In this document: positions 42,723 to 57,164 of the stretch, in pieces
Numbering within the stretch: the stretch's first letter is position 1
Layout of the letters: each line of letters begins with the position of its first letter
NCBI RefSeq assembly: GCF_016904885.1
Contig: NZ_JADWYI010000001.1
Location: forward strand, 1-64,000
DNA length: 64,000 nucleotides
DNA from: Archangium primigenium
Lineage (GTDB): Bacteria > Myxococcota > Myxococcia > Myxococcales > Myxococcaceae
Direction: 5' to 3'
The notes under the pieces: generated by a model
Seen by the model: the letters and a program-made list of their open reading frames with translations, nothing else
What the model was told of the DNA's origin: nothing
Databases searched by the model: none
Program-made: the position numbers and the translations under genes

Positions 42723-44291
42723 TCAGGACGGGTGTTCGTGATGCGGCTCCTCGCGCCTCAGGGGCAGGCGGACGTGGAAGGTACTCCCCGCGCCCTCGAC
42801 CCCGGGGGACTCGGCCCAGATCCGCCCCCCATGCTGGGCGATGATGCCCTGGGAGATGGTCAGCCCCAAGCCCAGGCCACCGTATCGCGCGCCGTGCGCC
42901 TGTCCAAAACGTTCAAAGATGAGCGCCAGCTTTTCCGCCGGGATGCCCACGCCCTCGTCCCGCACCCTCAGTGCGAGCTCGTCCGCCTCCGTCCAAACCC
43001 TCATCTCCACCGCCCCGCCATGGGGCGAGTAGCGCACGGCGTTGGACACGAGGTTGGTCACGACCTGCTCGATGCGCCCGGGGTCTCCGCTCATGGGAAG
43101 GCATTCGGGGACGTCCAGGCGCAGGCGATGTTGAGCGGTGAGCGATTGGAGCCGCTCGAAGGAGGTGCGCAGGAGCGGCACCAGGTCGAACTGCTCGACC
43201 TCCAGCGAGAGCCGGCCGGTGACGAGCCGGCTCACGTCCAAGAGGTCCCCCACCAGCTTCGTCATCCGGTCCACCTGGCGGCTCAGGCCATCGAGCGCCC
43301 GGCGGGGCCCGGGCTCCAGGATGGCGCCGTACTGCCGCTGGGCGAGCTGCACCTGCATCTTCGCGGCGGCCAGGGGCGTGCGCAGCTCGTGCGTGGCGGC
43401 GGCGAGGAACGCGTCCTTGGCCTCGCTCGCGCGCTTGGGGTCGTCGATGTCCGTGGCGGTGATGATCCACCCGGTGACGCGGCCCTGGCCATCGCGCTCG
43501 GCCACGGCGCGGCCCAGGAACCAACGGAAGGCCCCATCGGACTGGCGGGACATGCGGAACTGGACCTCGAAGGGCGTGCCGGTGCGCACCGACTCGCCCC
43601 ACGCGGCGTGCACGTCCTCCTGGTCCTCGGGGTGCACGGCGCACGAGCGCCAGAGGTTCTCCACCTCGTGCGCGGGCCGGCCGGACAGCTCCACCCAGGC
43701 GCGGTTGCCCCAGGACAGCCGCCCCTCGGGCGAGGCGACGAAGACACACAGGGGCATGGCGTCGGCGAGCAGGCGGTAGCGGTGGGCGCTCTCGCGCTCC
43801 AGGGCCTCGCGCTCGCGCCGGCGCAGGAGCGCCTCCTGGCGCTTGAGCTGCTGCTCCTTGAGGAACAGCTCCACGAAGACGGACACCTTCGAGCGGAGGA
43901 TCTCCGGCGCGAAGGGCTTGAGCACGTAGTCCACCGCGCCCTGGGCATAGCCCTGGAAGACGTGCGCGGCGTCGCGGTTGTGCGCGGTGAGGAAGACGAT
44001 GGGGATGAAGCGCGAGCGCTCGCGCTCCTTGATGAGCCGCGCCGCCTCGAAGCCATCCATGCCGGGCATCTGCACGTCCAGGAGGATGAGGGCGAAGTCC
44101 TCGCGCAAGAGCCGGAGCAGGGCCTCCGCGCCCGAGTGGGCCTTGACCACCTCGCCCAGGTCATCGAGCGTGGCCTCCAGGGCGAGCAGGTTGGGGGCAT
44201 GGTCATCGACGACGAGGATGCGCGCGCGCGGCAAGTCCGCGCGCACCTCCCGCTGAGCATGTCCGTCCGCCATCCAGGTCGTCTCCATCAT
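42723..44291 (-). CDS. REC-PAS-histidine kinase
   Basis: The 522-residue protein starts with a receiver domain ([31 protein letters not shown], Asp near 69; LKPFAP). A coiled link and a PAS domain follow ([20 protein letters not shown]), then HisKA ([17 protein letters not shown], His near 300) and ATPase boxes ([32 protein letters not shown]). There is no membrane segment. Its ATGATG start overlaps the stop of the poly-HAMP kinase, so the two are translationally coupled. The receiver-first layout suits a relay partner of that kinase. Confidence 0.92.
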
Positions 44292-47200
44292 CGCGGCCCT
44301 CCCGAGGGTGTCACCCAGTGGCACAGCAGCTCCAGCAGACGGTCGGTGTCGACGGGCTTGGACAGGTAGTCGGATGCCCCCGCCTCCAGACACTTCTCGC
44401 GATCGTCCTTGAGGGCCCGCGCGGTGATGGCGATGACGGGCAGCGAGGCCCACCGGGGATCCGCGCGAATGGCGCGCGCGGTCTGGTAGCCGTCCATCTC
44501 CGGCATCATCACGTCCAGCAGGACCACCTCCAGCTCCGGGGTTTTCTCCAGGAGCTCCATGGCGGCCCGGCCGTCCTGGGCGAACGTGACGTGCATGCCA
44601 TGGTTCTCCAGAACACTGGTGAGCGCGAAGATGTTGCGGGCGTCATCGTCCACCAGCAGCACGTGGTGTCCGGCGAGCGCCTGGGTCCGTGCCCGCCACC
44701 GCTCCTCCACGGACGGGCCCTCGTGCGCGCCCGTCGTGGGAGCGGGCGCGGTGGGCGGGTGCAGCAGGGCCAGGAAGCTGGTCTCCGCCTCGGACAGGGG
44801 CTCGCTCGCCCGCTCGGGGCCGGCGTAGCGGCAGGGCAGGAAGAGGGTGAAGGTGCTGCCCGCGTCCCGGGCGCTCTTCACGCGGATCTCCCCGCCCAAC
44901 AGCCGCGCCAGCTCCCGGCTGATGGACAGCCCCAGGCCCGTGCCGCCGTACTTGCGGCTCGTGGTGCCATCGGCCTGCTGGAAGGCCTCGAAGATGAGCT
45001 TCTGCTTGTCCTCGGGGATGCCGATGCCGGTGTCGATGACGGCGAAGGCCAGCACCTGATCGGCCTCCACCAGCTCCGGGGCGGAGAGGCGATCCTCCGT
45101 GTCCGCGCGACGCACGCGCAGCGTCACCTGGCCCTCGCTGGTGAACTTGAAGGCGTTGGACAAGAGGTTCTTGAGGATCTGCTGCAGGCGCTTGGGGTCG
45201 GTGTAGAGCGTGGCGGGCACCTCGGGGCTGACCTCGGTGACCAGGGCCAGGTGCTTCTGCTCGGCCACGGCGCTGAAGGTGCGGCGGGCGAAGTCCACCA
45301 GCTCCATGAGCGCCACGTCCTGGGGCTCCACCTGCATCTTGCCGGCCTCCACCTTGGCCAGGTCGAGGATCTCGTTGATGAGGCTGAGCAGATCACCCCC
45401 CGAGGAGTAGATGGTCTCCGCGTACTCCACCTGCTTGTGGGCGAGCCGGCCGTCGGGGTTGTCCGCGAGCAGCTTGGCGAGCACGAGCATGCTGTTGAGG
45501 GGCGTGCGCAGCTCGTGGCTCATGTTGGCGAGGAACTCGCTCTTGTACTTGGAGATGAGCGAGAGCTGCTCGGCCTTCTCCTCCAGCGAGGAGCGCGCCT
45601 GCTCCACCTCGCGGTTCTTCTCCTCCACCTTGATGTTCTGCTGCTCGAGCAGCTTGGCCTTCTCCTCCAGTTCCAGCGCCTGGGCCTCCAGGGCGGAGTT
45701 GGAGCGGCGCAACTCCTGCTGCTGCAGGGTGAGTTCGCGCGACTGGCTTTGCAGCTCGTTGGCGAGGCTCTGCGATTGGCGCAAGAGCTCCTCGGTGCGC
45801 ATGTTGGCCATGATCATGTTGAGCACCACGCCGATGCTCTCGGTGAGCTGGTCCAGGAAGATCTGATGGATGGTGCTGAAGGGGTGGAAGGAGGCCAGCT
45901 CGATGACGGCCTTCACCGCGCCCTCGAAGAGCACGGGCAGGACGATGATGTTCAGGGGGCTCGCCTCGCCCAGACCCGAGGCGATGCGGATGTAGTCGTG
46001 GGGCACGTCCGTGAGCAGGAGCGTCTTCTTCTCCAGGGCGCACTGGCCCACGAGGCTCTCGCCCAGGCGGAAGCGGTTGGCCACCGTGCGGCGCTCGCGG
46101 TAGGCGTAGCTGGAGGTGAGCTTGGCCACGGGGGCGCCGTCCTCCACGTCCATGAGGAAGAAGGCGCCGTGGTGCGCGGACACCAGGGGCGTGAGCTCGG
46201 ACATGATGAGCCGGGACACGGCCTCCAGGTTCTTCTGGCCCTGCATCATCCCGGAGAACTTGGCCAGGTTCGTCTTGAGCCAGTCCTGCTCGGTGTTCTT
46301 CTGGGTCGTCTCCTTCAGGTTGACGATCATCTGGTTGATGTTGTCCTTGAGGGAGGCCACCTCCCCCTGGGCATCCACCGAGATGGAGCGCGTGAGGTCC
46401 CCCTTGGTCACCGCGGTGGCCACTTCCGAGATGGCGCGCACCTGGGTGGTGAGGTTGCCGGCGAGCTGGTTCACGTTGTCGGTGAGCTGGCGCCACGCCC
46501 CGCGCGCGCCGGGCACCTTGGCCTGGCCCCCGAGCTTGCCCTCGCGGCCCACCTCGCGCGCCACGCTGGACACCTGCTGGGCGAAGGTGCCGAGCGTGTC
46601 CGTCATGCCGTTGATGGTGTCGGCGAGCGCGGCCACCTCGCCCTTGGCGTCCACCACCAGCTTCTGGGTGAGGTCGCCGTTGGCCACCGCCGTCACCACC
46701 CGCACGATGCCGCGCACCTGGGTGGTGAGGTTGCGCGCCATGAGGTTCACGTTGTCCGTGAGATCCTTCCACGTGCCGGCGACCCCGGGCACCCGGGCCT
46801 GGCCTCCGAGCTTGCCCTCCGTGCCCACCTCGCGCGCCACGCGTGTCACCTCGCTGGCGAACGCGTTGAGCTGGTCCACCATGGTGTTGATGGTGTCCTT
46901 GAGCTCGAGGATCTCGCCCTTGGCGTCCACGGTGATCTTCTTGGACAGGTCGCCGTTGGCCACCGCGGTGGTCACCTTGGCGATGTTGCGCACCTGGTTG
47001 GTGAGGTTGCTCGCCATGGAGTTCACGCTGTCGGTGAGGTCCTCCCAGACGCCGCTCACGCCCTGCACCTCGGCTTGACCGCCGAGCTTGCCCTCGGTGC
47101 CCACTTCCTTCGCCACGCGCGTCACCTCGGCGGCGAAGGAGCGCAGCTGGTCCACCATGGTGTTGATGGTGTCCTTGAGCTCGAGGATCTCCCCCTTCAC

Positions 47201-48502
47201 GTCCACGGTGATCTTGCGCGACAGGTCCCCGTTGGCCACGGCCGTGGTGACGAGCGCGATGTTGCGCACCTGGCTGGTGAGGTTGCTCGCCATGGAGTTC
47301 ACGTTGTCCGTGAGGTCCTTCCACGTCCCGCTCACGCCCGGCACGTCCGCCTGGGCGCCGAGCTTGCCCTCCACGCCCACCGTCTTGGCGACGCTCGTCA
47401 CCTGGTCGGCGAAGATGCCCAGCGTCTTGGTCATGCTGTTGAGCGTGTCGGCGAGCGCGGCCACCTCGCCCTTGGCGTCCACCACCAGCTTCTGGGTGAG
47501 GTCGCCGTTGGCCACCGCCGTCACCACCTTCACGATGCCGCGCACCTGGGTGGTGAGGTTGGTCGCCATGAGGTTCACGTTGTCGGTGAGGTCCTTCCAC
47601 ACGCCCGACACGCCCGGCACATGGGCCTGGCCCCCGAGCTTGCCCTCGGTGCCCACTTCCTTCGCCACACGCGTCACCTCGCCCGCGAACGAGCGGAGCT
47701 GATCCACCATGGTGTTGACGGTGTTCTTGAGCTCCAGCACCTCGCCGCGCGCGTCCACGGTGATCTTCCGCGACAGGTCGCCGCGCGCCACGGACGTGGT
47801 GACCTCGGCGATGTTGCGCACCTGGGCGGTGAGGTTGTTGGCGAGCTGGTTCACGCTGTCGGTGAGGTCCTTCCACACGCCCGACACGCCCGGCACCCGG
47901 GCCTGGCCGCCCAGCTTGCCCTCGGTACTCACCTCGCGCGCCACGCGTGTCACCTCGGCCGAGAAGGAACCGAGCTGATCCACCATGGCGTTCACCGTGG
48001 TGCCGATGCGCCAGAACTCGCCCTTCATGGGCTGGCCCGGCTGGTCGAGCGCCATCTTCTGGGTGAGGTCGCCCCGGGCCACGGCGTCCAGCACCCGCGC
48101 CACCTCCGTGGTGGGCTGCACCAGGGAGGCGATGAGCGCGTTGAGGGCGCCGATGCCGCTCGCCCAGCCCCCGCCCACCAGGCCCAGGGACGCCCGCTCG
48201 TCCATCCGCCCCTCGCGGCCCACCACCTGCTCCATGCGCACCAGCTCGTCGCGCATGCGCTGGTGCATGCCCACCAGGCCGTTGAAGGCGTGCGCCACCT
48301 CCTCCATCGCCACCGGACAGTTCTCGGGAGACAGGCGCGCGGAGAAATCCCCCGCCTTGGCGGCCCTCAAGGCCTCCAAGAGGTCATCCAGGGCACGGAC
48401 GGTGGAGACGCGGCGGACCCGGACACTGCGTCCGGCGGACGTGGCGGCGCGCACCTTCTTTCCAGACGAGGGACGCGTGGAGGGACGGGACCGGGGCTTC
48501 AC
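44288..48502 (-). CDS. Poly-HAMP hybrid histidine kinase (HAMP x8, GAF, HisKA, ATPase, REC)
   Basis: This is a very large cytoplasmic kinase of about 1404 residues. The N-terminal half is a chain of about eight HAMP-type units (residues about 60-710). Each is marked by a GDLTQKL/GDLSRKI-like motif followed by [12 protein letters not shown], at a 92-residue period. A GAF domain follows ([16 protein letters not shown]), then a long coiled coil, HisKA ([16 protein letters not shown], near 994), ATPase ([13 protein letters not shown]) and a C-terminal receiver ([15 protein letters not shown], near 1329). The layout matches fungal group III/Nik1-type osmosensing kinases. GTG 48502 follows CAGGAG. 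It overlaps the REC-PAS-kinase start. Confidence 0.93.
46380..48085 (-). repeat. Tandem HAMP-coding DNA repeats, 276-bp period
   Basis: Within the poly-HAMP kinase, about six consecutive units of 92 codons (276 bp) are similar at the DNA level; the first unit is 97 codons. Boundaries are approximate. Confidence 0.8.
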
Positions 48503-48613
48503 GGTGGCTCCTGGGCCGAAGGTTGGCGTTATCCCAACCTCGCAACGCGCCCGGGTTCCTCCCCACCCAGGTGCCCCCATCCACCATGGTGAGCGCCTGG
48601 CTGGACGCCCGCA

Positions 48614-49045: not shown

Positions 49046-49146
49046 GCGCGCTCCCTCGAAGGATCCGGGCCACCCATGAGATAACAGGCCAGGAGGCCTC
49101 CCGCACTCGACCATGACCGGGGGCGCCCCAGGGAGGGTGAGTGGCG

Positions 49147-49647
49147 ATGATTCAGCCCATCAGGGAAGCACTGACGGCGGAGGACTTCGCGGCGTATGGC
49201 CAGGTGGTGGAGGTGCCCGACACGGGCGGGCGCCTCATCAACAATGGGACGGCCTGGCGCTACGACGACGTGGCGGAGTTGGCGCTGGACCGCGACGGGG
49301 GCCGGCCCCTGCTCAGCCTCTTCCGGGTGCAGCCCGCGCGCTTCCCACTGCGCTGCACGCAGTTGGAGCGCCACCCCACGTCCAGCCAGCTCTTCCTGCC
49401 GCTCGGGGAGCGGCCCTTCCTCGTGGTGGTGGCCCTGGGCCGGGACGCGCCGGACCCCGCCACGCTGCGCGTCTTCGTCACCAACGGCCACCAGGGCGTC
49501 AACTACGCGCCGGGCACCTGGCACCACCCCACGCTCGCCCTGGAGGTGGAGACGGACTTCCTCGTGCTCGGGCGCGCGGACACGCGCCCCGGGGACAACT
49601 GCGACGAGCTGCCCTTCGAGGGCGACATGGTCTTCGAGCTGACCTGA
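49147..49647 (+). CDS. allA: Ureidoglycolate lyase
   Basis: The 166-residue cupin-fold enzyme has AYGQVVEVPD, GTAWRYDDVAELAL, TSSQLFLPLGERPFLVVVAL and the diagnostic NYAPGTWHHPTLALEVETDF with its double histidine. It splits ureidoglycolate to glyoxylate and urea at the end of purine/allantoin breakdown. ATG 49147 sits nine bases after GGGAGGG; GTG 49141 would be too close. No other allantoin gene is present here. It is divergent from the DCC gene and converges with the anti-sigma gene. Confidence 0.9.
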   Translation: MIQPIREALTAEDFAAYGQVVEVPDTGGRLINNGTAWRYDDVAELALDRDGGRPLLSLFRVQPARFPLRCTQLERHPTSSQLFLPLGERPFLVVVALGRDAPDPATLRVFVTNGHQGVNYAPGTWHHPTLALEVETDFLVLGRADTRPGDNCDELPFEGDMVFELT

Positions 49648-49671
49648 CGGCCCTGGAGGGCTCGCTGGCGC

Positions 49672-50418
49672 CTACCGGGGCGAGAGCGTGAGGGACGTCT
49701 CGGACAGCGCGCGGCCCTGGGCGTCCCGGAAGCGCGCCTGGACCTTCAGGGGCCCCGAGAGCCAGCCGCCCTGGACCGGGGTGCTGTGCGGCAGGGGCAC
49801 GTCCACCCCGGGGGCGAGCGGCGCCCCGTCGCCCTCGGTGGAGAAGAAGCGCAGGGGCTCGCCCGCGGGGCCCGGGGCCTCCACCGTGAGCCGCGCCGCC
49901 TCGGGCGCCGTGTAGCTGAACTGCACTGCGTCGCCCTCGCCGCACACGAGCGCGCCGCCCGGGCCCGCCTCCCCGAGCACCCGGCCCTCCGGCCCCACGC
50001 AGAAGGCACGCAGGCCCCAGGCGCCCGTGGCCGGGCCTCCCCGCGCGCCCCACTCGGACTCCGGCGCGCGCATCCGGGGCACCACCACCACGAGCGCCAC
50101 CGCGGCCACCGCCAGCCCCGCCAACGACGGCAGGACGAAGGAGGGCAGCGTGAAGCGGGCCCGCGCGGGCGGACGGGCCGCCTGGGGCGCCTGGGCCAGC
50201 CGCGCGAACAGCTCCTTCTCCAGGAGCGCCTGGCGGTTCTCCGGGAGGGCACGTCCCTCCAGGGCGGAGTCCACCCGGCTCATCCGCTCGTACACCTCGC
50301 GGCACGCGGCGCACCCGGCCACGTGCTCGCGCAGCCGCGCGTAGCCCTCGGGGTCCAGGCTGCCCTCGAAGAGCGCCCGCAGGGCCTGCTTCGCCTGTCG
50401 GTCCGTGCACTGGGTCAT
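49672..50418 (-). CDS. Zinc-finger anti-sigma factor-like membrane protein
   Basis: The 248-residue protein has an N-terminal zinc-binding anti-sigma motif (His32-x3-Cys36-x2-Cys39 in REHVAGCAACREVYERM). One membrane helix follows near residues 105-125 (FVLPSLAGLAVAAVALVVVV), then a periplasmic domain of about 120 residues of unknown fold (FSYTAPEAARLTVEAPGPAG). Its ATG overlaps the sigma factor stop (ATGA). It should hold the sigma factor inactive until an envelope signal arrives. The downstream secreted caspase operon, on the other strand, is a candidate regulon. Confidence 0.85.
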   Translation of the reverse strand: MTQCTDRQAKQALRALFEGSLDPEGYARLREHVAGCAACREVYERMSRVDSALEGRALPENRQALLEKELFARLAQAPQAARPPARARFTLPSFVLPSLAGLAVAAVALVVVVPRMRAPESEWGARGGPATGAWGLRAFCVGPEGRVLGEAGPGGALVCGEGDAVQFSYTAPEAARLTVEAPGPAGEPLRFFSTEGDGAPLAPGVDVPLPHSTPVQGGWLSGPLKVQARFRDAQGRALSETSLTLSPR

Positions 50419-51065
50419 GACTGGCCTCGTCGCTTGAGGAAACTCCACCCCTTGAGCTCGATGTCCTCGAGGTACCCCTTGGACTGGAGGAACTCGAGCA
50501 GCCGGGTCTTGAGCCCCAGCTCCCGGCGCCGCACCTGGATGCGCGTCATCCCCAGCCGCTCCGCCGCCCCCTCCTGCGCCAGGCCCTCCTCGCCAAAGCG
50601 CAGCTCGAAGAGCCGGCGCTCCTCCGTGCTCAACCCATCCTTGAAGTCCGACAACAGCCCCTCCACCTCTTGGTCCTCCAATATCCGCGCCGACTCCAGC
50701 CCCTCCGCCACCGCCTCCCCACCCACCTCCTCGAAGGGCTCCAGCCCCACCGCCACCTCGCGCTGCCGCGCCTGCTCCAGGAGCACGTTGCGGGCGATCC
50801 CCACCAGGAAGTGCTGATAGGGGCGCACCCCGTCGTAGGCCTGCCGGGTCCTCGGCTCGAACGCCCGGGCGAAGGTCTCCAGGACCGTGTTCTCCACCTC
50901 CAGCGCGCCCTGGAAGGAGGTGCTGCCCCGGGCCCGCCAGACCATGCCCCTGAGCATCCGGGCCAGGCCCTCCGCATGCGCCCGGTACACCCGCCCCATC
51001 GTCGCCGGGTCGCCTTCCCGAAAGGCCTGCAATGTCCGTGTGTCCCACTCCATCACCTCGGCCAC
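50415..51065 (-). CDS. ECF-type (sigma-70 family) sigma factor
   Basis: The product of about 216 residues has a region 2-like segment (GRVYRAHAEGLARMLRGMVW, then RPYQHFLVGIARNVLLEQAR) and a region 4-like end (LSTEERRLFELRFGEEGLAQ, EGAAERLGMTRIQVRRRE). It is longer than a minimal ECF factor and has an insert around residues 105-130. It is co-translated with a zinc-finger anti-sigma factor. The start may be GTG 51065 or ATG 51053; the shorter one has GAGG close by. It is divergent from the caspase operon, and the 200-bp gap holds repeats that could be its promoter or operator. Confidence 0.83.
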   Translation of the reverse strand: MAEVMEWDTRTLQAFREGDPATMGRVYRAHAEGLARMLRGMVWRARGSTSFQGALEVENTVLETFARAFEPRTRQAYDGVRPYQHFLVGIARNVLLEQARQREVAVGLEPFEEVGGEAVAEGLESARILEDQEVEGLLSDFKDGLSTEERRLFELRFGEEGLAQEGAAERLGMTRIQVRRRELGLKTRLLEFLQSKGYLEDIELKGWSFLKRRGQS

Positions 51066-51157
51066 TTAGCGTGCCCAGCCTCCGACGTCATCCATCCCCT
51101 CTCCCTCCAGTTGTCGGGGCCCGGAGGGGTTGGATCCCACGCCGTGAGAAAAACCGT

Positions 51158-51195
51158 GTCTCGGTCGCCCAGAGGACAGAGGGGCGACCTGAGAC
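51158..51195. promoter_or_regulatory. Inverted repeat plus extra GGGGCGACC copy between sigma factor and caspase operon
   Basis: GTCTCGGTCGCCC (51158-51170) pairs with GGGCGACCTGAGAC (51182-51195), 13 base pairs with one bulged T and an 11-nt loop. A further direct copy of GGGGCGACC lies at 51215-51223. It could be an operator or an mRNA 5' hairpin of the caspase operon; the sigma-factor link is inference. Confidence 0.45.
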
Positions 51196-51265
51196 GGGAG
51201 GGGCGGCAATCGACGGGGCGACCCTTGCCCCGCCCCTCGGCTCCCAGGGACACTTGTTGTCTCCT

Positions 51266-52528
51266 ATGCAACTGCTCCGAAGCGCCCTGGTGGTGGCCGG
51301 CTGCGCGGTGTTCCTCGGGAGTGCGTCCGCGGGTGCCGCGCCCGAGCGGCCCGCCTACGCCCTCATCGTCGCCAACAACGTGGGGCTGGAGCCCCAGCAG
51401 GCCCCCCTGCGCTACGCGGACGACGACGGGGCGCGGTACTACGAATTGCTCGCGCCGCGCGTGAAGGAAGCCGTGCTGCTCACGGTGCTGGACGCCGACA
51501 CCCAGGCGCTGCACCCGGGGCTGGCCGGCCGCACCACGCCGCCCACCCGCGCCGCGCTCCAGGAGGCGCTCGGCCGACTCAACACGCGCATGGCGGAGGA
51601 CAAGGCCCGGGGCGCCCAGCCGGTGCTCTATTTCGTCTTCACCGGCCACGGCAAACGCGGGGCCGCGGGCGAGGGCGCGGTGAGCCTGCTGGATGGGGCC
51701 TTCACCCGGACGGACCTCTATACCCAGGTGCTCGCGCCCAGCACCGCCAGCCGCGTGCACCTCATCGTGGACGCGTGCGACTCGTACTTCTTCGTCAACT
51801 CGCGCGGCGCCCTGCCCACCGGCCCCGCGCAGTTGAGCGCGGTGCGCGACACGCTCGCCGCGCGCGAGCTCTCGCGCTACCCGCACGTGGGCGCCGTGCT
51901 GTCCACCACGCGCGAGCAGGAGAGCCACGAGTGGAGCGCCATCCGCTCGGGCGTCTTCAGCCACCAGGTGCTCTCGGCGCTCGCGGGCGCCGCGGACGTC
52001 AACGCGGACGGGCGCGTGGAGTATTCGGAGCTGCAGGCCTTCATCGCCGCGGCCAACCAGGGCGTGGACGACGTGCGCGGCCGGCTGGACGTGTCCATCC
52101 AACCGCCGGAGATGGACCGCACCCTGCCGCTGGTGGACTTGAAGGAGCGCTCGCGCCTGGGCTTCCTCCTGCTGCCGCCGGGGCTGGAGGGCCGGCTGTG
52201 GGTGGAGGACGCGCGGGGCCTGCGCGTGGCGGAGCTGCACAAGGAGCGCGAGCGCCCGGTGGTGCTGGGGCTGCCCCCGAGCGAGCGCTACTTCCTGCGC
52301 ACCCAGGGGCGCGAGGCCCCCTTCCGCTTCGCCCGGGAGGGGGCGGTGGTGGACGCGGGCGGCCTGGGCTGGCGCGACAACGCCTTCGCCGCGCGGGGCG
52401 CCGTGGAGGACGCCTTCCGCGAGCGGCTCTTCTCCGTGCCCTTCGGCCCGCGCTTCTACCAGGGCTACATGGCCAGCATCGGGCAGACGCCCGTGGCGGC
52501 CGAGCTGGAGCCGGACCTCTCGCCATGA
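51266..52528 (+). CDS. Secreted caspase-like (C14) protease
   Basis: The 420-residue protein has a signal peptide (LLRSALVVAGCAVFLGSASA). The caspase fold follows with YALIVANNVG, the catalytic His128 in YFVFTGHGKRG and catalytic Cys171 in HLIVDACDSYFF. The gap between them (43 residues) is normal for metacaspase-like C14 enzymes. An EF-hand-like loop is near residues 232-244 (DVNADGRVEYSEL), suggesting calcium dependence. The C terminus is a beta-rich domain of unknown type. It is the first of three overlapping genes and is divergent from the sigma/anti-sigma pair. Confidence 0.87.
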   Translation: MQLLRSALVVAGCAVFLGSASAGAAPERPAYALIVANNVGLEPQQAPLRYADDDGARYYELLAPRVKEAVLLTVLDADTQALHPGLAGRTTPPTRAALQEALGRLNTRMAEDKARGAQPVLYFVFTGHGKRGAAGEGAVSLLDGAFTRTDLYTQVLAPSTASRVHLIVDACDSYFFVNSRGALPTGPAQLSAVRDTLAARELSRYPHVGAVLSTTREQESHEWSAIRSGVFSHQVLSALAGAADVNADGRVEYSELQAFIAAANQGVDDVRGRLDVSIQPPEMDRTLPLVDLKERSRLGFLLLPPGLEGRLWVEDARGLRVAELHKERERPVVLGLPPSERYFLRTQGREAPFRFAREGAVVDAGGLGWRDNAFAARGAVEDAFRERLFSVPFGPRFYQGYMASIGQTPVAAELEPDLSP

Positions 52529-53265
52529 GCCCGTTCGCGCTCGCGCTCGCCCTGACGCTCACGCAGGCGCCCTGCCAGGGCGAGCGGGTGGTGCTCTTGC
52601 CCCTGCAACCCGTGGCGCTGTCGGCGGCGGAGGCGCGCGGGGTGGAGGAGCGCGTGCGCCGGGCGATGGACACCCTGCCGGGCGTGTGTCTGGAGCCGCG
52701 CGCGGAGACGGTGGCGCGGCTGCGCGCGCGGGGCGGTCGGCTCGCGGGCTGCTCGGACGCGGCGTGCCGGGGCGCGCAGGTGGCGGCGCTCGGCGCCCGG
52801 CGGCTGGTGCGCGGCTCGGCGCTGGGCGTGGGGGGCTCGCACGCGGCGGCGCTCACCCTGGTGGACCGCGAGGGCCACGAGACCCAGGCCACGCTGGAGC
52901 TCGCGTCCGAGGGCACGGCCCCGGCGGACGGCGAGCGGCTGCGCGCGGCCTTCGCGGCGGTGTGGAGCCCGGGCGAGGGCCCCGGCACCGCGCGCGCCCG
53001 GGGCCCCTGGCCCACGGTGCTCTGGGCGGCGGGGGGCGTGGCGCTCGCGGCGGGCGTGGGCTTCGGGCTCGCGTCGCGCGGTGGCCAGTCCGCCCTGTCC
53101 ACCGGGGCCGCGGGCTGCGCGGGCGAGGGCGCCGTCTTCCGCGACTGCGTCACCCAACGGCTGCAGCGCGGGCGGCTCCAGGCGCGCACCGCCAACGCCC
53201 TGTGGGGCGCGGGGGCGCTGCTGGGCGTGGGGGGAACCGTGCTCTTCGTCTGGGAGCTGCCATGA
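52525..53265 (+). CDS. Caspase-operon membrane protein, unknown
   Basis: The 246-residue protein begins with a signal-like segment (MSPFALALALTLTQAPCQGE). A globular part of about 130 residues with several cysteines follows (RGGRLAGCSDAACRGAQVAA). It ends with two membrane helices (TVLWAAGGVALAAGVGFGLA and GAGALLGVGGTVLFVW). Its ATG overlaps the caspase stop, and its stop overlaps the next ATG. Co-translation suggests a complex with the protease. The family is not recognised. Confidence 0.72.
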   Translation: MSPFALALALTLTQAPCQGERVVLLPLQPVALSAAEARGVEERVRRAMDTLPGVCLEPRAETVARLRARGGRLAGCSDAACRGAQVAALGARRLVRGSALGVGGSHAAALTLVDREGHETQATLELASEGTAPADGERLRAAFAAVWSPGEGPGTARARGPWPTVLWAAGGVALAAGVGFGLASRGGQSALSTGAAGCAGEGAVFRDCVTQRLQRGRLQARTANALWGAGALLGVGGTVLFVWELP

Positions 53266-54353
53266 GGCGCGTCGCGTGGGGGGGGATGGGCGGGGTGTTC
53301 GCGCTGGGCGCGTGTGTCTTCGCGCCGGACTTCTCGCGCTACCCCTCGTGTGACACGGCGGGCGCGTGCCCGTCGGGCTTCACCTGCCTCGTGCCCGAGG
53401 GGCTGTGCCTGCCGGACTGCGGCGAGCGCGGCCCCTGCGCGCCGCTCGAGGAGACGCCCGCGCCCCCGGACGCGGGCCCGGGGGCACCGGACGCGGGCAC
53501 TCCGGACGCGGGCACTCCGGACGCGGGGCAGCCGGAGCGACCCCCGTCGCTGGAGCTCGTGGCGACGCTTCCGCCCGACGGCGTGGAGCGGGAGGGCTTC
53601 ACCTTCGCCTTCCAGGCGCGAGGCGGCACGCCCCCCCTGACGTTCTCCCTCGCGGGCGACGCGCCGCCGGGCCTGGGGCTCGACGCCCAGGGCACGCTCT
53701 CGGGCACCCCCACCACGCCGGGCGAGTACACCTTCACGCTCGAGGCACGGGATGCCGCCGCCGAGCCCCAGCGCGTGAGCCAATCGGTCACCGTGCGCAT
53801 CCACCCCGAGCTGCGGCTGGCCGGGCCCCTCATCCTCGCGGACTTCCCGCGCGGCGGGGTCTACGCGGAGCGGGTCCTGGCGCTCGGCGGACGGCCGCCC
53901 TACACCTTCACGCTGCCCGCGGGCAATCCCCTGCCCTCGGGGCTCGCGCTCTATGAGGAGGGCGCCGTGCGAGGCACCTCCAACTCCGCGGGCGCCTCGT
54001 CCTTCGAGGTGCGGGTGACGGACTCCGCCCGGCCGCCGCGCATCACCTCGGGCAGCCTGCAGCTCACCGCCAGCTCCTGCGCCACGCCGCCCTGCATGCG
54101 CACGCGCACCCTGCCCGACGCGCGCGTGGGCGACGCGTACACCTACGCGCTCCAGGCCACCACCGGCACGAGTTCGCCCACCTGGTCCGTCACGGTCGGC
54201 GCGCCGCCCCCGGGCCTCCAGCTCACCTCGGACGGCGTGCTCTCCGGCACCCCCCTCCAGTCGGGCCGCTTCGAGGCCACCTACTGTGTCTCGGAATGGC
54301 TCGGCACGGTGCTCGGCACCCGGAGCGTGACGCTGAGCCTCAAGGTGCTTTGA
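53262..54353 (+). CDS. Lipoprotein with three putative Ig (He_PIG-like) domains
   Basis: The 363-residue lipoprotein has a signal ending LGACVF. A Cys-rich stretch follows (CDTAGACPSGFTCLVPEG), then an Ala/Asp/Pro/Gly repeat (PDAGTPDAGTPDAG), then three putative Ig domains. Each contains a PPLTFSLAGDAPPGLGLDAQ-like motif or PPYTFTLPAGNPLPSGL and the SGTP turn. This domain type binds surfaces or forms adhesive stalks. It is translationally coupled to the preceding membrane protein. It may anchor or present the caspase at the surface; that is inference. Confidence 0.8.
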   Translation: MRRVAWGGMGGVFALGACVFAPDFSRYPSCDTAGACPSGFTCLVPEGLCLPDCGERGPCAPLEETPAPPDAGPGAPDAGTPDAGTPDAGQPERPPSLELVATLPPDGVEREGFTFAFQARGGTPPLTFSLAGDAPPGLGLDAQGTLSGTPTTPGEYTFTLEARDAAAEPQRVSQSVTVRIHPELRLAGPLILADFPRGGVYAERVLALGGRPPYTFTLPAGNPLPSGLALYEEGAVRGTSNSAGASSFEVRVTDSARPPRITSGSLQLTASSCATPPCMRTRTLPDARVGDAYTYALQATTGTSSPTWSVTVGAPPPGLQLTSDGVLSGTPLQSGRFEATYCVSEWLGTVLGTRSVTLSLKVL

Positions 54354-54501
54354 GCTCCGGACTCCGCGTGCGGGAAACCCTCGGGGAAATCTTTATTTAA
54401 TCGGTTTTGATCCAGCCCTCCGGTCCTTTTCCAATAACAGATGAAGGCGCGAGGGAGTCGGAACCCCCTCCGGACCCCGCCCTTCCTACCCGGAGAAGAC
54501 C

Positions 54502-55140
54502 ATGACCCCCCGTTCCCTCAAGAGCATCCTCATTGGCGCCGCCCTCGTTGCTTCCGCCGCTCCTGGTCTGGCGCTGGCGGGCACCACCTGCGTGTATGTG
54601 ATTGGCCAGGCCGGGGGCAAGACGGTCACCACGCCGGCCATCCCCATCGTGGTCCCGGCGAGCGAGGCCCTGACGGAGCCGGTGCGCGTGCACCTGGACG
54701 AGACGGCGCAGAACATCATCGGCTACTCGCTGGCCATCCCGGGCCTGGACGCGGGCACCGAGGGCACGCCGCTCTTCTCCATCCCGGAGATCAACCAGGT
54801 CATCCCGGGCTTCAGCGTCAACATCCCGCTCATCGACCTGACGCGCTACCGCTGCGTGGATGCCTCGGGCGTGACCGTGCCGGCCATCCCCTACTACATC
54901 CCCGGCTCGGCCTTCAGCGTGCCCGGCGGCTTCGTGGACGTGGGCGCCGTCTTCTTCAACCTCACGGGCCGCGAGTTCACCGTGCCGGGCAAGCTGCTCA
55001 CCTTCGACGGCAAGCAGGTCATCATCCCCACCCAGAGCGGCAGCACCTCGAGCACCCCGGTGTCCACGCCGGACTCGAGCGTCACCCTCAACCTCGACAA
55101 CGCCTCCTACTCCATCAGCTACCTGAAGCCCGTGAAGTAG
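54502..55140 (+). CDS. Secreted protein of unknown family
   Basis: The 212-residue protein has a signal peptide (SLKSILIGAALVASAAPGLA, cleaved near LALAG). The remainder is beta-rich and Pro/Ile/Val-rich, with recurring V-P-x-I/A-P turns (TTPAIPIVVPASEALTEP, VTVPAIPYYIPGSAFSVPGG). It has two cysteines (CVYV, YRCVD) and a Ser/Thr-rich spacer near the end. GGAGAAG is a few bases before the ATG. The gap upstream is AT-rich (TTTATTTAATCGGTTTTG near 54392). Two hairpins follow. Function unknown; secretion and structure suggest a surface or matrix protein. Confidence 0.75.
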   Translation: MTPRSLKSILIGAALVASAAPGLALAGTTCVYVIGQAGGKTVTTPAIPIVVPASEALTEPVRVHLDETAQNIIGYSLAIPGLDAGTEGTPLFSIPEINQVIPGFSVNIPLIDLTRYRCVDASGVTVPAIPYYIPGSAFSVPGGFVDVGAVFFNLTGREFTVPGKLLTFDGKQVIIPTQSGSTSSTPVSTPDSSVTLNLDNASYSISYLKPVK

Positions 55141-55171
55141 TCTGGAGTTGAACAGCGCTGAAATCTTTTGA

Positions 55172-55196
55172 GCGGCCGAGATCCCATCCCGGCCGC
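55172..55196 (+). terminator. Hairpin after the secreted protein gene
   Basis: GCGGCC (55172-55177) pairs with GGCCGC (55191-55196). No T-run follows, so it is weak as a terminator by itself. Confidence 0.35.
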
Positions 55197-55225
55197 TCGC
55201 GACAACAGCCAGCAGTCCAGCGAGA

Positions 55226-55253
55226 AGCCCGCGGCGTCCCGGCCGCGGGCTTT
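55226..55253 (+). terminator. Rho-independent-like terminator
   Basis: The perfect stem GCCCGCGGC/GCCGCGGGC (55227-55235 and 55242-55250) has a 6-nt loop, flanking A/T pairs and a following TTT. It ends the upstream secreted-protein transcript just before the S8 protease gene. Confidence 0.65.
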
Positions 55254-55274
55254 CGCGTTCCCGGGAGTCCACCC

Positions 55275-57164
55275 TTGAAGAGCCTCCAGACGTTGGGCCT
55301 CACCCTCACCGCCGCCCTGCTCGCGGGCTGCGGCAGCGCCGATCCCCTCCCCGCCTCCCCGGCCGCGTCCACGCCCGCCGCGCTCCAGGACGGCGCGTCG
55401 GCTGCCATCGTGGGCCCGAGCGCCGCGGGCCAGAGCGCGTGCGCGCAGGCCTACGCGACGCCCGAGGCCCAGGCGGCGCTCACCCAGGCGGTGATGGACC
55501 CGAGCCTCACGCCCGACGGCGGCCTCAAGACGCTCATCCTCTCCTTCAATACCCAGCAGGCGGTGGCCCCGGCGCTCAAGCTGCTGGGCAATCCGCTCGG
55601 GCTCAACCTGGGCAAGGGCAGTCTCGGCGCCCTGCGCACCCTGCCCATGGTGGTCATCAAGGCGCCGGTGACGCCGACGTTCCTCGCGCTCGTGCGCACC
55701 ACGCTGCAGCCGCTCGGCCTCTTGTCCATCTACCAGGACCGGCCGCTGCACTCCTTCCTGGACGAGAGCGTGCGCTACATCCAGGCGGACACGGCGCGCA
55801 CCACCTTCGACGTGACGGGCAAGGGCGTGGGCGTGGGCGTCATCGACTCGGGCGTGGACGGCACGCACGGGGACTTCCCCACCCTGGTGAAGAACGTGAA
55901 GGTGGTGGCCTCGCCCTTGGAGCAGGGCGTGGGCGGAGCGCTCTACCTGGACGTGCCCAACAGCGACCTGACGAGCGGCCACGGCACGCACTGCGCGAGC
56001 ACCATCGCCGGCTCGGGCGCGCGCTCGGGCGGCAAGTACCAGGGCGTGGCGCCCGGGGCGAGCCTGCTCGCGGTGGGCGCGGGCGACGCCATCAGCATCC
56101 TCTTCGCGCTGCAGGGCTTCGACTACCTCACCCACCCGGACATCCGCGAGACGTACAACCTGCGCGTCATCTCCAACTCCTGGGGCACGAGCGGCAGCCA
56201 CTTCGCGCCGTTCGATCCGGTGAGCATCGCCACCAGGCGCGCGTATGACCAGGGCATCGTCGTGGCGTTCGCCGCGGGCAACGACGGCCCGGGCGCCGAC
56301 ACGCTCAACCCCTACAGCGCCTCGCCGTGCGCCCTGTCCGTGGCGGCCGGCGCCGCCAAGGACACCACCGGCGCGAAGAACCCGCTCCTGTCCAAGGGCG
56401 TGCCGGGCGCGCTCGCGGACTTCTCCAGCCGCGGCATCCCGGGCGATGCGCTGCACCACCCGGACGTGACGCTGCCGGGCGTGGCCATCGTCGCCGCGCG
56501 CGCCACCACGGCCACCATCGCCCACCCCTACACGGGCCTGGACGGCCTGCACCCCGAGCCCTTCTACGCGGCGCTGGATGGCACCTCCATGGCCACCCCG
56601 CACGCGGCGGGCGTGGCGGCGCTCATCCTCGAGGCCAACCCCACGCTCAACCTGGACGGCGTGCTGCTGGCCATGACGAGCACGGCCCGGCCCATCCACG
56701 CGCCGGGCAAGAGTGAGCCGCTGGCCGAGTGGGAGGCGGGCGCGGGCTACGTGGACGCCTACGCCGCGGTGCGCGCGGCCACGCGGCTGGGCGGCGGCCG
56801 CACCACCACCACCACCACGGCGCTGCCCGGCTGGACGGGCCACGTGGACCTGGCGGTGAAGGTGCCGGTGGCGGACGTCACCCTGGCCGAGGCCGAGCAC
56901 ACGCACAGCTTCACCGTGCCCGCGGGCAGCAGCGCCCTGCGGCTGGCCACCACCTGGGGCAACCCCGCGTATGACCTGGACCTCTCCGTGTACGACCCCA
57001 GCGGCAAGCTGGTGGGCACGAGCGCCAACGGCACGTCCGTGGCCGAGTCGGTGAGCATCCCCTCGCCCCGCGCGGGCGTGTGGAAGGCCGTGCTCAAGGG
57101 CTTCCTCAACGCGCCCACGGACTACACGGGCACGGCCGAGGTGGACACGGTCGTCGCGCGCTAA
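55275..57164 (+). CDS. Secreted S8 (subtilisin-like) serine protease lipoprotein
   Basis: The 629-residue protein has a lipoprotein signal (LTAALLAGC). An I9-like propeptide region follows (about 80-165), then the S8 catalytic triad: Asp191 (GVIDSGVDGTHGDF), His236 (TSGHGTHCAST) and Ser438 (LDGTSMATPHAAG), with the oxyanion Asn in SNSWG or FAAGND. A C-terminal beta domain resembling PPC completes it (FTVPAGSSALRLATTWGNPA). The start is TTG 55275 with GGGAG seven bases before. It is monocistronic between two terminators. It is probably a periplasmic or surface protease; substrate unknown. Confidence 0.92.
   Translation: MKSLQTLGLTLTAALLAGCGSADPLPASPAASTPAALQDGASAAIVGPSAAGQSACAQAYATPEAQAALTQAVMDPSLTPDGGLKTLILSFNTQQAVAPALKLLGNPLGLNLGKGSLGALRTLPMVVIKAPVTPTFLALVRTTLQPLGLLSIYQDRPLHSFLDESVRYIQADTARTTFDVTGKGVGVGVIDSGVDGTHGDFPTLVKNVKVVASPLEQGVGGALYLDVPNSDLTSGHGTHCASTIAGSGARSGGKYQGVAPGASLLAVGAGDAISILFALQGFDYLTHPDIRETYNLRVISNSWGTSGSHFAPFDPVSIATRRAYDQGIVVAFAAGNDGPGADTLNPYSASPCALSVAAGAAKDTTGAKNPLLSKGVPGALADFSSRGIPGDALHHPDVTLPGVAIVAARATTATIAHPYTGLDGLHPEPFYAALDGTSMATPHAAGVAALILEANPTLNLDGVLLAMTSTARPIHAPGKSEPLAEWEAGAGYVDAYAAVRAATRLGGGRTTTTTTALPGWTGHVDLAVKVPVADVTLAEAEHTHSFTVPAGSSALRLATTWGNPAYDLDLSVYDPSGKLVGTSANGTSVAESVSIPSPRAGVWKAVLKGFLNAPTDYTGTAEVDTVVAR

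Follow-up and report, generated by a model that had tools for sequence, protein, structure and literature searches.

Anti-sigma factors are often cleaved by DegS-like proteases, and in the DegS-RseA-RseP-sigmaE system the anti-sigma is degraded by a site-1 cut and then a site-2 cut. Removal of the anti-sigma by regulated proteolysis has also been reported for RsiP-sigmaP (PMC8844934). In the type III-E CRISPR (clustered regularly interspaced short palindromic repeats) system Csx29-Csx30-CASP-sigma, a caspase-like protease cuts the inhibitor of a sigma factor of the extracytoplasmic function (ECF) type and relieves the inhibition (PMC10028731). Sigma genes of the ECF54 group are linked to genes for CHAT/subtilase proteins and have been discussed as working without an anti-sigma (PMC8999054). 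Asplund-Samuelsson et al. (2012, PMC3501461) have reported that four of the five metacaspases of Myxococcus xanthus DK1622 are found in operons with sigma-70 factors, and that such operons also occur in Anaeromyxobacter, Haliangium, Sorangium, Ralstonia, and Fibrobacter. The present text concerns a five-gene locus in a stretch of 64,000 nucleotides from Archangium primigenium (the window), which encodes an ECF-type sigma factor (SIG), a membrane anti-sigma (ASF), a predicted secreted caspase (CASP), a probably exported protein (MEM), and a lipoprotein (LIP). The recurrence of sigma and anti-sigma genes beside caspases, together with a common site in the anti-sigma linker, suggests that the caspase turns the switch on by cutting, and that it is part of the signalling module, probably as a protease acting on the anti-sigma, and not only its output.

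The site in question lies in the anti-sigma. ASF fits the class I zf-HC2 pattern, with an H-x3-C-x2-C finger (PF13490, 28.1 bits against a cut-off of 22.2), one transmembrane (TM) helix, an extracytoplasmic domain, and a gene adjoining that of the sigma factor. Its AlphaFold2 model (predicted local distance difference test, pLDDT, 82.3; predicted template modelling score, pTM, 0.50) has the TM helix at residues 93-115, the strands of a beta-sandwich from residue 135, and pLDDT below 50 in the linker at residues 116-125 and 127-129, so that R126 would lie in a disordered linker across the membrane from the zinc finger. In an alignment of 18 anti-sigmas (A3), four columns are invariant (C140, C159, G204, and F230), and R126 is among the columns conserved at 90% or more, together with H32, C36, and C39 of the zinc finger, Y43, R137, G162, and L209. 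The conservation of R126 is on a par with that of the zinc ligands, even though the surrounding linker appears disordered in the model. A second set of anti-sigmas (n=7) has invariant R113 and G114 at the equivalent position. The outer domain of ASF shows weak likeness to RhoGDI/NPC2-type sandwiches; DUF4384 was rejected as a name for the anti-sigma domain, since only two of seven members matched it, and weakly.

The same kind of site was found in anti-sigmas from many caspase-linked loci (designated by L numbers), which were divided into near and far classes at a caspase-profile score of 250 bits. The 30 residues that follow the TM helix contain arginine or lysine followed by glycine ([RK]G) in 57/66 near and 37/38 far anti-sigmas, against 3/34 unlinked zf-HC2 TM proteins. 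Single-letter shuffles of the same segments gave a mean of 27 and a maximum of 37 for the near class and a mean of 19 and a maximum of 25 for the far class. After the removal of close copies, 43 of 49 near anti-sigmas contain [RK]G, with a shuffle maximum of 31. A strict motif, [WF]x[ASVTP]R[GSAK], is present in 55/66 near, 1/38 far, and 0/34 unlinked proteins, and a loose one, [WFYLM]xx[RK][GSAK], in 62/66 near, 9/38 far, and 4/19 unlinked proteins. The basic residue stands 2-29 residues from the TM helix (65 measured) and 7-26 residues from the folded domain (40 measured), a variable spacing that would fit a short linear motif. These counts exclude linked proteins with no predicted TM helix (L060, L096, and L110); they score as misses L077, where the TM call is wrong and LASRG is visible by eye, and L079, which lacks both sigma and anti-sigma and contributed an unrelated neighbour; and some of the linked loci are one gene fetched twice (e.g., L063/L089 and L064/L091). 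For the controls, 34 zf-HC2-type proteins with no caspase in the fetched flank (1.5-2.5 kb) were drawn from ten genomes; they include long proteins of 460-540 residues, a kinase-like protein that a permissive selection pattern let in (L166), and one gene counted twice (L173/L256). A basic residue followed by Gly or Ser in the juxtamembrane linker of caspase-adjoining anti-sigmas appears to be a new feature.

The caspase is widespread, being found in 89 of 96 genomes in a family search (E<=1e-10) and in 152 of 195 genomes in a phylum search with a profile. The preliminary description of this DNA had looked to conservation of the five-gene neighbourhood, and this was borne out: caspase-MEM-LIP is kept in all 20 orthologue-type loci (L031-L050), with a sigma gene within about 5 kb in each. 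Tblastn detected the sigma gene in 19/19 of L031-L049, and in 17 of them it is divergent and starts within 190 bp of the caspase start; the sigma-caspase gap widens to about 1 kb in L033 and 5 kb in L034, and in L050 all five genes are present in a co-directional arrangement. Paralogous caspases (L051-L070), which are 36-46% identical to CASP, lie mostly in co-directional rows, in which sigma and anti-sigma precede the caspase and a variable gene comes last. A sigma gene, one gene, and a caspase in succession were also seen among 44 loci from named or binned genomes, examples being Enhygromyxa (L077), a Polyangia bin (L076), Hyalangium (L094), and Myxococcus xanthus (L084), and in 33 of forty further regions from eight genomes with mostly distant caspases; one of these 33 is L205, the only other profile-found caspase of the window genome. 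On one strand and in this order, the three genes occur at 79 loci. A six-frame search placed an ECF sigma no more than 5 kb from the caspase at 101 of the 119 loci examined, and of the 18 misses, 3 are truncated by a contig end; the in-house gene caller, which swallowed some sigma genes, gave 94/119.

Searches that started from the anti-sigma also led to caspases. In ten genomes, all 27 anti-sigma-profile matches at E<=1e-10 that reached profile position 178 or beyond (the periplasmic domain) lay within 2 kb of a caspase match, one of the 27 caspase partners being broken. Four of five weaker and seemingly unlinked matches adjoin a caspase (L245, L247, L248, and L249), and the fifth (L246) lies in a spurious gene call. 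Mantel comparisons of eight systems within one genome gave r 0.79 for SIG-CASP (p 0.002), 0.59 for ASF-CASP (p 0.0025), and 0.69 for SIG-ASF; in a second genome, also with eight systems, the values were 0.67, 0.40 (p 0.06), and 0.55.

The His-Cys dyad of CASP is intact in both sequence and model. H128, C171, D169, and D54 are invariant in 114/114 aligned relatives (70 near and 44 far; the shorter of the 119 caspases were dropped from the alignment). The AlphaFold2 model, built from a 22-sequence alignment (pLDDT 84.8, pTM 0.86), consists of a caspase core followed by a beta-rich domain and has no helical repeat region. Foldseek matched the model to metacaspase 9n3e with E 1.5e-6 (TM-score 0.36 by query and 0.46 by target); the best matches were Arabidopsis MCA9 (AtMCA9), yeast Yca1, and a Candida metacaspase, and MALT1 and gingipain R were also among the PDB matches. 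The Pfam profile PF00656 gave no match to CASP at E<=1; it matches 15 of the 22 members of the CASP alignment (A1) at E<=0.01, the window protein not among them, and scored above cut-off in 4/4 distant-class caspases tested. CASP is therefore assigned to peptidase family C14 by its predicted fold and its dyad, not by profile. The EF-hand-like loop pointed out in the preliminary description is real: D244 is conserved in 114/114, D248 in 112/114, and E255 in 113/114 aligned relatives, and a PDB profile search matched EF-hand proteins over the stretch D244-E255, with no other matches. The N-terminus is signal-peptide-like by eye and points to export. Paralogues are extended at the C-terminus. Among near caspases of at least 450 residues (n=53), hydrophobic segments past residue 300 were seen in 33 (at least one each) and were absent from the other 20; several of these 20 look like beta-barrels by eye, and one distant-class caspase has a weak Pfam outer-membrane barrel match below cut-off.

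D169, two residues before the catalytic cysteine, is presumably the counterpart of D211 of TbMC2. In TbMC2, the acidic residues D95 and D211 have been reported to bind basic substrates (PMC8283722), and orthocaspases have been reported to cleave after positively charged residues (PMC6426788). Given this preference for a basic P1 residue and the conserved basic site of the anti-sigma, the simplest reading is that the caspase may cut its own anti-sigma in the linker. The window locus is proposed to belong to a large class of ECF sigma/membrane anti-sigma/envelope caspase modules in Myxococcota that work as follows, an explanation that we rate slightly short of an even chance. The zinc-finger anti-sigma would hold the sigma factor at the inner membrane, as in its family, and the co-encoded caspase would be exported and retained in the envelope. 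Retention would depend in paralogues on a barrel-like domain or on hydrophobic segments fused to the C-terminus, and here perhaps on MEM and LIP. An envelope signal, perhaps calcium acting through the conserved EF-hand loop, would activate the caspase, which would then cut the anti-sigma after the conserved Arg or Lys of the linker (R126/G127 in the window), a basic P1 residue that the acidic residues of the caspase could accommodate. An RseP-type site-2 protease, for which the window genome has at least two candidate loci over cut-off, would complete the release, and the freed sigma factor would transcribe its own operon and the caspase-MEM-LIP operon. More broadly, and with more hesitation, it is possible that Myxococcota possess parallel transmembrane channels, about ten in some genomes, each with a perhaps calcium-gated envelope caspase that serves as site-1 protease of its own anti-sigma by a cut after Arg or Lys near the membrane, so that these caspases would be transcription switches and not enzymes of death or degradation.

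Several observations weigh against this mechanism. The loose motif is no commoner in far and unlinked proteins than in shuffles, and the strict motif is all but missing from the far class, whose sites read xKG and might instead mark the edge of the domain. Homology among the linked anti-sigmas means that the motif counts are not independent, and caspase-linked anti-sigmas were also the source of the anti-sigma profile. ASF-CASP distances agree weakly in the second genome. In the six-frame search, 15 of the 116 uncut caspase loci had no ECF sigma (L107 and L229 had one by the gene caller), and some caspases therefore act otherwise. Some paralogue caspases look, by eye, as if anchored in the outer membrane, which would place them far from the inner-membrane linker unless they are released, and the putative acidic S1 pocket of CASP (D169 and D54) is judged from sequence and not from coordinates. 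Furthermore, the caspase-side promoter-like element described below was not found in the window itself.

The alternative that fares best, although we consider it rather unlikely, is that of the preliminary description, in which the caspase is output only: an envelope signal would free the sigma factor through another protease, and the sigma factor would induce a surface complex of caspase, MEM, and LIP acting on proteins of the envelope or of prey. The divergent promoter region is conserved, in agreement with this alternative. In 18 of 20 loci (shuffle mean 0.17, maximum 2), a bipartite element that reads ATCC[AG]-N15-NNCAA in the direction of sigma starts at a distance of 56-70 nt upstream of the sigma start. 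The element remains with the sigma gene where insertions part that gene from the caspase (L033 and L034). The two loci without it upstream of the sigma gene, L048 and L049, have a common inverted repeat, GCCAGCGCTGGC, in its place. On the caspase side, 12 of the 20 loci carry an element GGAT-N15 to 17-TGGCA, and in L034 the caspase, 5 kb from the sigma gene, still has its own separate copy (GGAT-N16-TGGCA), which also favours an output role. The caspase-side element was not found in L031-L033, L035, and L047-L049, and among the five loci closest to the window only L034 has a copy. From the placement of these elements, autoregulation of the sigma factor is plausible, as is its control of the caspase operon in relatives; in the window, the promoter-like element was seen on the SIG side only. 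The claim that the sigma factor switches on a surface caspase is thus supported in part: the neighbourhood is conserved, which removes half of the refuting condition set in the preliminary description, CASP combines an intact dyad with a signal-peptide-like start, and the divergent region contains a conserved promoter-like element, but the element follows the sigma gene and its caspase-side counterpart is missing here. Genes after paralogue caspases fit an output role as well, since several encode Ig, fn3, FG-GAP, or LRR-like repeat proteins; the ten scanned gave FG-GAP/fn3, Big_6, DUF7151/Receptor-L, M64-peptidase, and fatty acid desaturase matches, some having no match, and a lipobox pattern was present in 43 of 91 co-directional next genes. 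What a caspase acting as output only leaves unexplained is the basic-Gly/Ser site of the partner anti-sigmas and the co-occurrence and co-evolution of caspase and anti-sigma, for which cleavage of the anti-sigma by the caspase would account.

Two other promoter readings were considered and rejected. The intergenic element was first read towards the caspase as a shared two-way sigma promoter, and this was dropped because the element follows the sigma gene in L033 and L034. The pattern ACC-N17-19-CGT[AT] before paralogue sigma genes, present in 8/41 near (shuffle mean 3.5, maximum 8) and 0/37 far cases, was rejected as general evidence. When whole genomes were scanned for a more stringent version of the SIG-side element, 3 matches were obtained in the window genome (G000) and 3-9 in each of four others, with 0-1 for a backwards control; no regulon was seen in these five genomes with this form, which mismatches the window's own element.

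According to a further alternative, which appears improbable, the caspases are effectors of development or cell death, removing proteins as the cells fruit or lyse, and the sigma pair only times their expression. Such a role has been raised for the metacaspases of M. xanthus by Asplund-Samuelsson et al. (2012, PMC3501461). It sits poorly with the signal-peptide-like starts and envelope-anchor-like additions of these proteins, and with the presence in some genomes of about ten caspase loci, most with their own sigma and anti-sigma, which resemble parallel signal channels. In the window genome, two caspase matches were found vs 6-12 in each of nine others (some being pieces of one gene), and the caspase number is markedly reduced in the window lineage. 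Broken copies were also encountered: at L070 (7067-8952), behind sigma and anti-sigma genes, a caspase is split into two overlapping frames by a probable frameshift, and at G060:C1:7114698-7116973 a caspase with internal stops lies beside a stop-free anti-sigma match. The contig of L085, filed as Comamonas sp. KCTC 72670, has a module layout near-identical to that of M. xanthus L084 and is probably misassigned or contaminated.

The weakest alternative, that the basic-Gly motif is a structural or topological feature of the anti-sigma domain or is cut by a general protease of the DegS type, may draw on the position of the motif before a folded domain in the linked anti-sigmas, on its other form in the far class, and on the frequency of DegS-like cleavage among anti-sigmas, but it is doubtful in view of the low-confidence, disordered linker in which the site lies, its varying spacing to TM helix and domain, and the absence of [RK]G from 31/34 unlinked zf-HC2 proteins.

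The features of the locus are collected in Table 1. All five genes were found where the preliminary description had placed them (49672-54353), and its numbering of Cys171 agrees with a CASP start at ATG 51266, which is preferred to the 51032 of the longest open reading frame. The ASF and SIG reading frames overlap by 4 bases, as do those of CASP and MEM and of MEM and LIP. Region 4 of SIG matches PF04545 (E 1.1e-6, 28.5 bits against a cut-off of 24.1). Two further profiles remain below cut-off, PF07638 with 19 bits against 21.1 and TIGR02937 with 36.2 bits against 42.9, and PF04542 (region 2) gave no match at E<=1. The conserved SIG start is probably ATG 51053 (MEWD...), because orthologue alignments begin at residue 4-6. 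MEM has five invariant cysteines among 14 orthologues (alignment A5), C55, C76, C81, C198, and C208, and no match in Pfam, NCBIfam, or PDB-sequence searches, which likewise gave no support to a CsgG/TolB-like domain in this protein. LIP matches He_PIG (PF05345) with E 6.3e-25.

Table 1. Coordinates of genes, residues, and elements of the locus within the window.
Feature	Position	Strand	Basis
ASF, zf-HC2 membrane anti-sigma	49672-50418	-	PF13490 match, TM helix in model
Codon of ASF R126, proposed P1 residue of site-1 cut W-G-A-R/G-G	50041-50043	-	Conserved column, [RK]G enrichment
SIG, ECF-type sigma factor	50415-51065	-	PF04545 match and orthologue alignments
Bipartite element ATCCA-N15-GACAA read towards SIG (TTGTC-N15-TGGAT on +), candidate SIG promoter	51111-51135	-	18/20 loci
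CASP, predicted secreted caspase/metacaspase-fold protease, 420 residues	51266-52528	+	Dyad, model, Foldseek
Codon of CASP catalytic H128	51647-51649	+	Alignment of relatives
Codon of CASP catalytic C171	51776-51778	+	Alignment of relatives
CASP EF-hand loop D244-E255	51995-52030	+	Conservation and PDB profile matches
MEM, probably exported, C-terminal hydrophobic hairpin, invariant Cys	52525-53265	+	14-orthologue alignment
LIP, lipoprotein, three He_PIG Ig-like stretches	53262-54353	+	PF05345, lipobox LGAC by eye

Neighbouring genes were also inspected. Downstream of LIP, a 212-residue protein with no Pfam or NCBIfam match (54502-55140) is kept in L031-L035 at 23-73% identity, and it is followed by an S8 subtilase with a PPC domain (55275-57164). 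Homologues of the subtilase flank the block at this end in L033-L035 and at the opposite end, adjoining the anti-sigma, in L042 and L043, so that the subtilase may be a loose partner of the locus. Beyond ASF, the minus strand at 44288-48580 encodes a very large protein that resembles a sensor kinase and contains many repeats of almost identical sequence; by eye it is a HAMP-repeat hybrid kinase, and a long spurious antisense reading frame lies opposite.

What caspase homologues do in bacteria is a question of long standing. If the proposed mechanism is true, it would offer a defined substrate, a predicted cut site (R126/G127), and a simple reporter, a caspase would join the short list of site-1 proteases, and the module would be an envelope counterpart to the CRISPR Csx29/Csx30 case. 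The group includes a laboratory model, M. xanthus, with five metacaspases, four of them in sigma-factor operons (PMC3501461).

Compared with the systems described, the module is not the type III-E CRISPR CASP, judging from the absence of helical repeats in the CASP model and of Cas families in the eight genes scanned with Pfam (49141-57164, the part of the window covered by that scan); a defence system was rejected as well, since PADLOC gave no match for any of the five module proteins. The likeness to Csx29 is that a caspase-like protease frees an ECF-type sigma factor by cleavage of its inhibitor, which is predicted here, and the difference is that Csx29 is an RNA-activated TPR-CHAT protease of a CRISPR locus, whereas in the present module the N-terminus of the caspase is of the export type and the anti-sigma contains a TM helix. 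In the DegS and RsiP systems, the site-1 protease is a PDZ serine protease or a signal peptidase; here, the candidate is the co-encoded caspase. The ECF54 group shares the linkage of ECF sigma genes to genes of caspase-related peptidases and differs in being discussed as working without an anti-sigma, while a zf-HC2 anti-sigma is present here. The preliminary statement that no named system has this exact composition needs to be narrowed, since sigma-factor/metacaspase operons have been known since 2012; the divergent MEM/LIP form, the anti-sigma, the linker site, and a mechanism, all described or proposed for the present module, do not appear in the available part of that account (PMC3501461). 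The open-access literature searched contained no description of an envelope caspase acting on an anti-sigma, and relative to that literature, the module seems to be a variant of ECF/anti-sigma signalling not described before, its mechanism as yet unproven, in which the place held by DegS would be taken by a caspase encoded beside its own anti-sigma.

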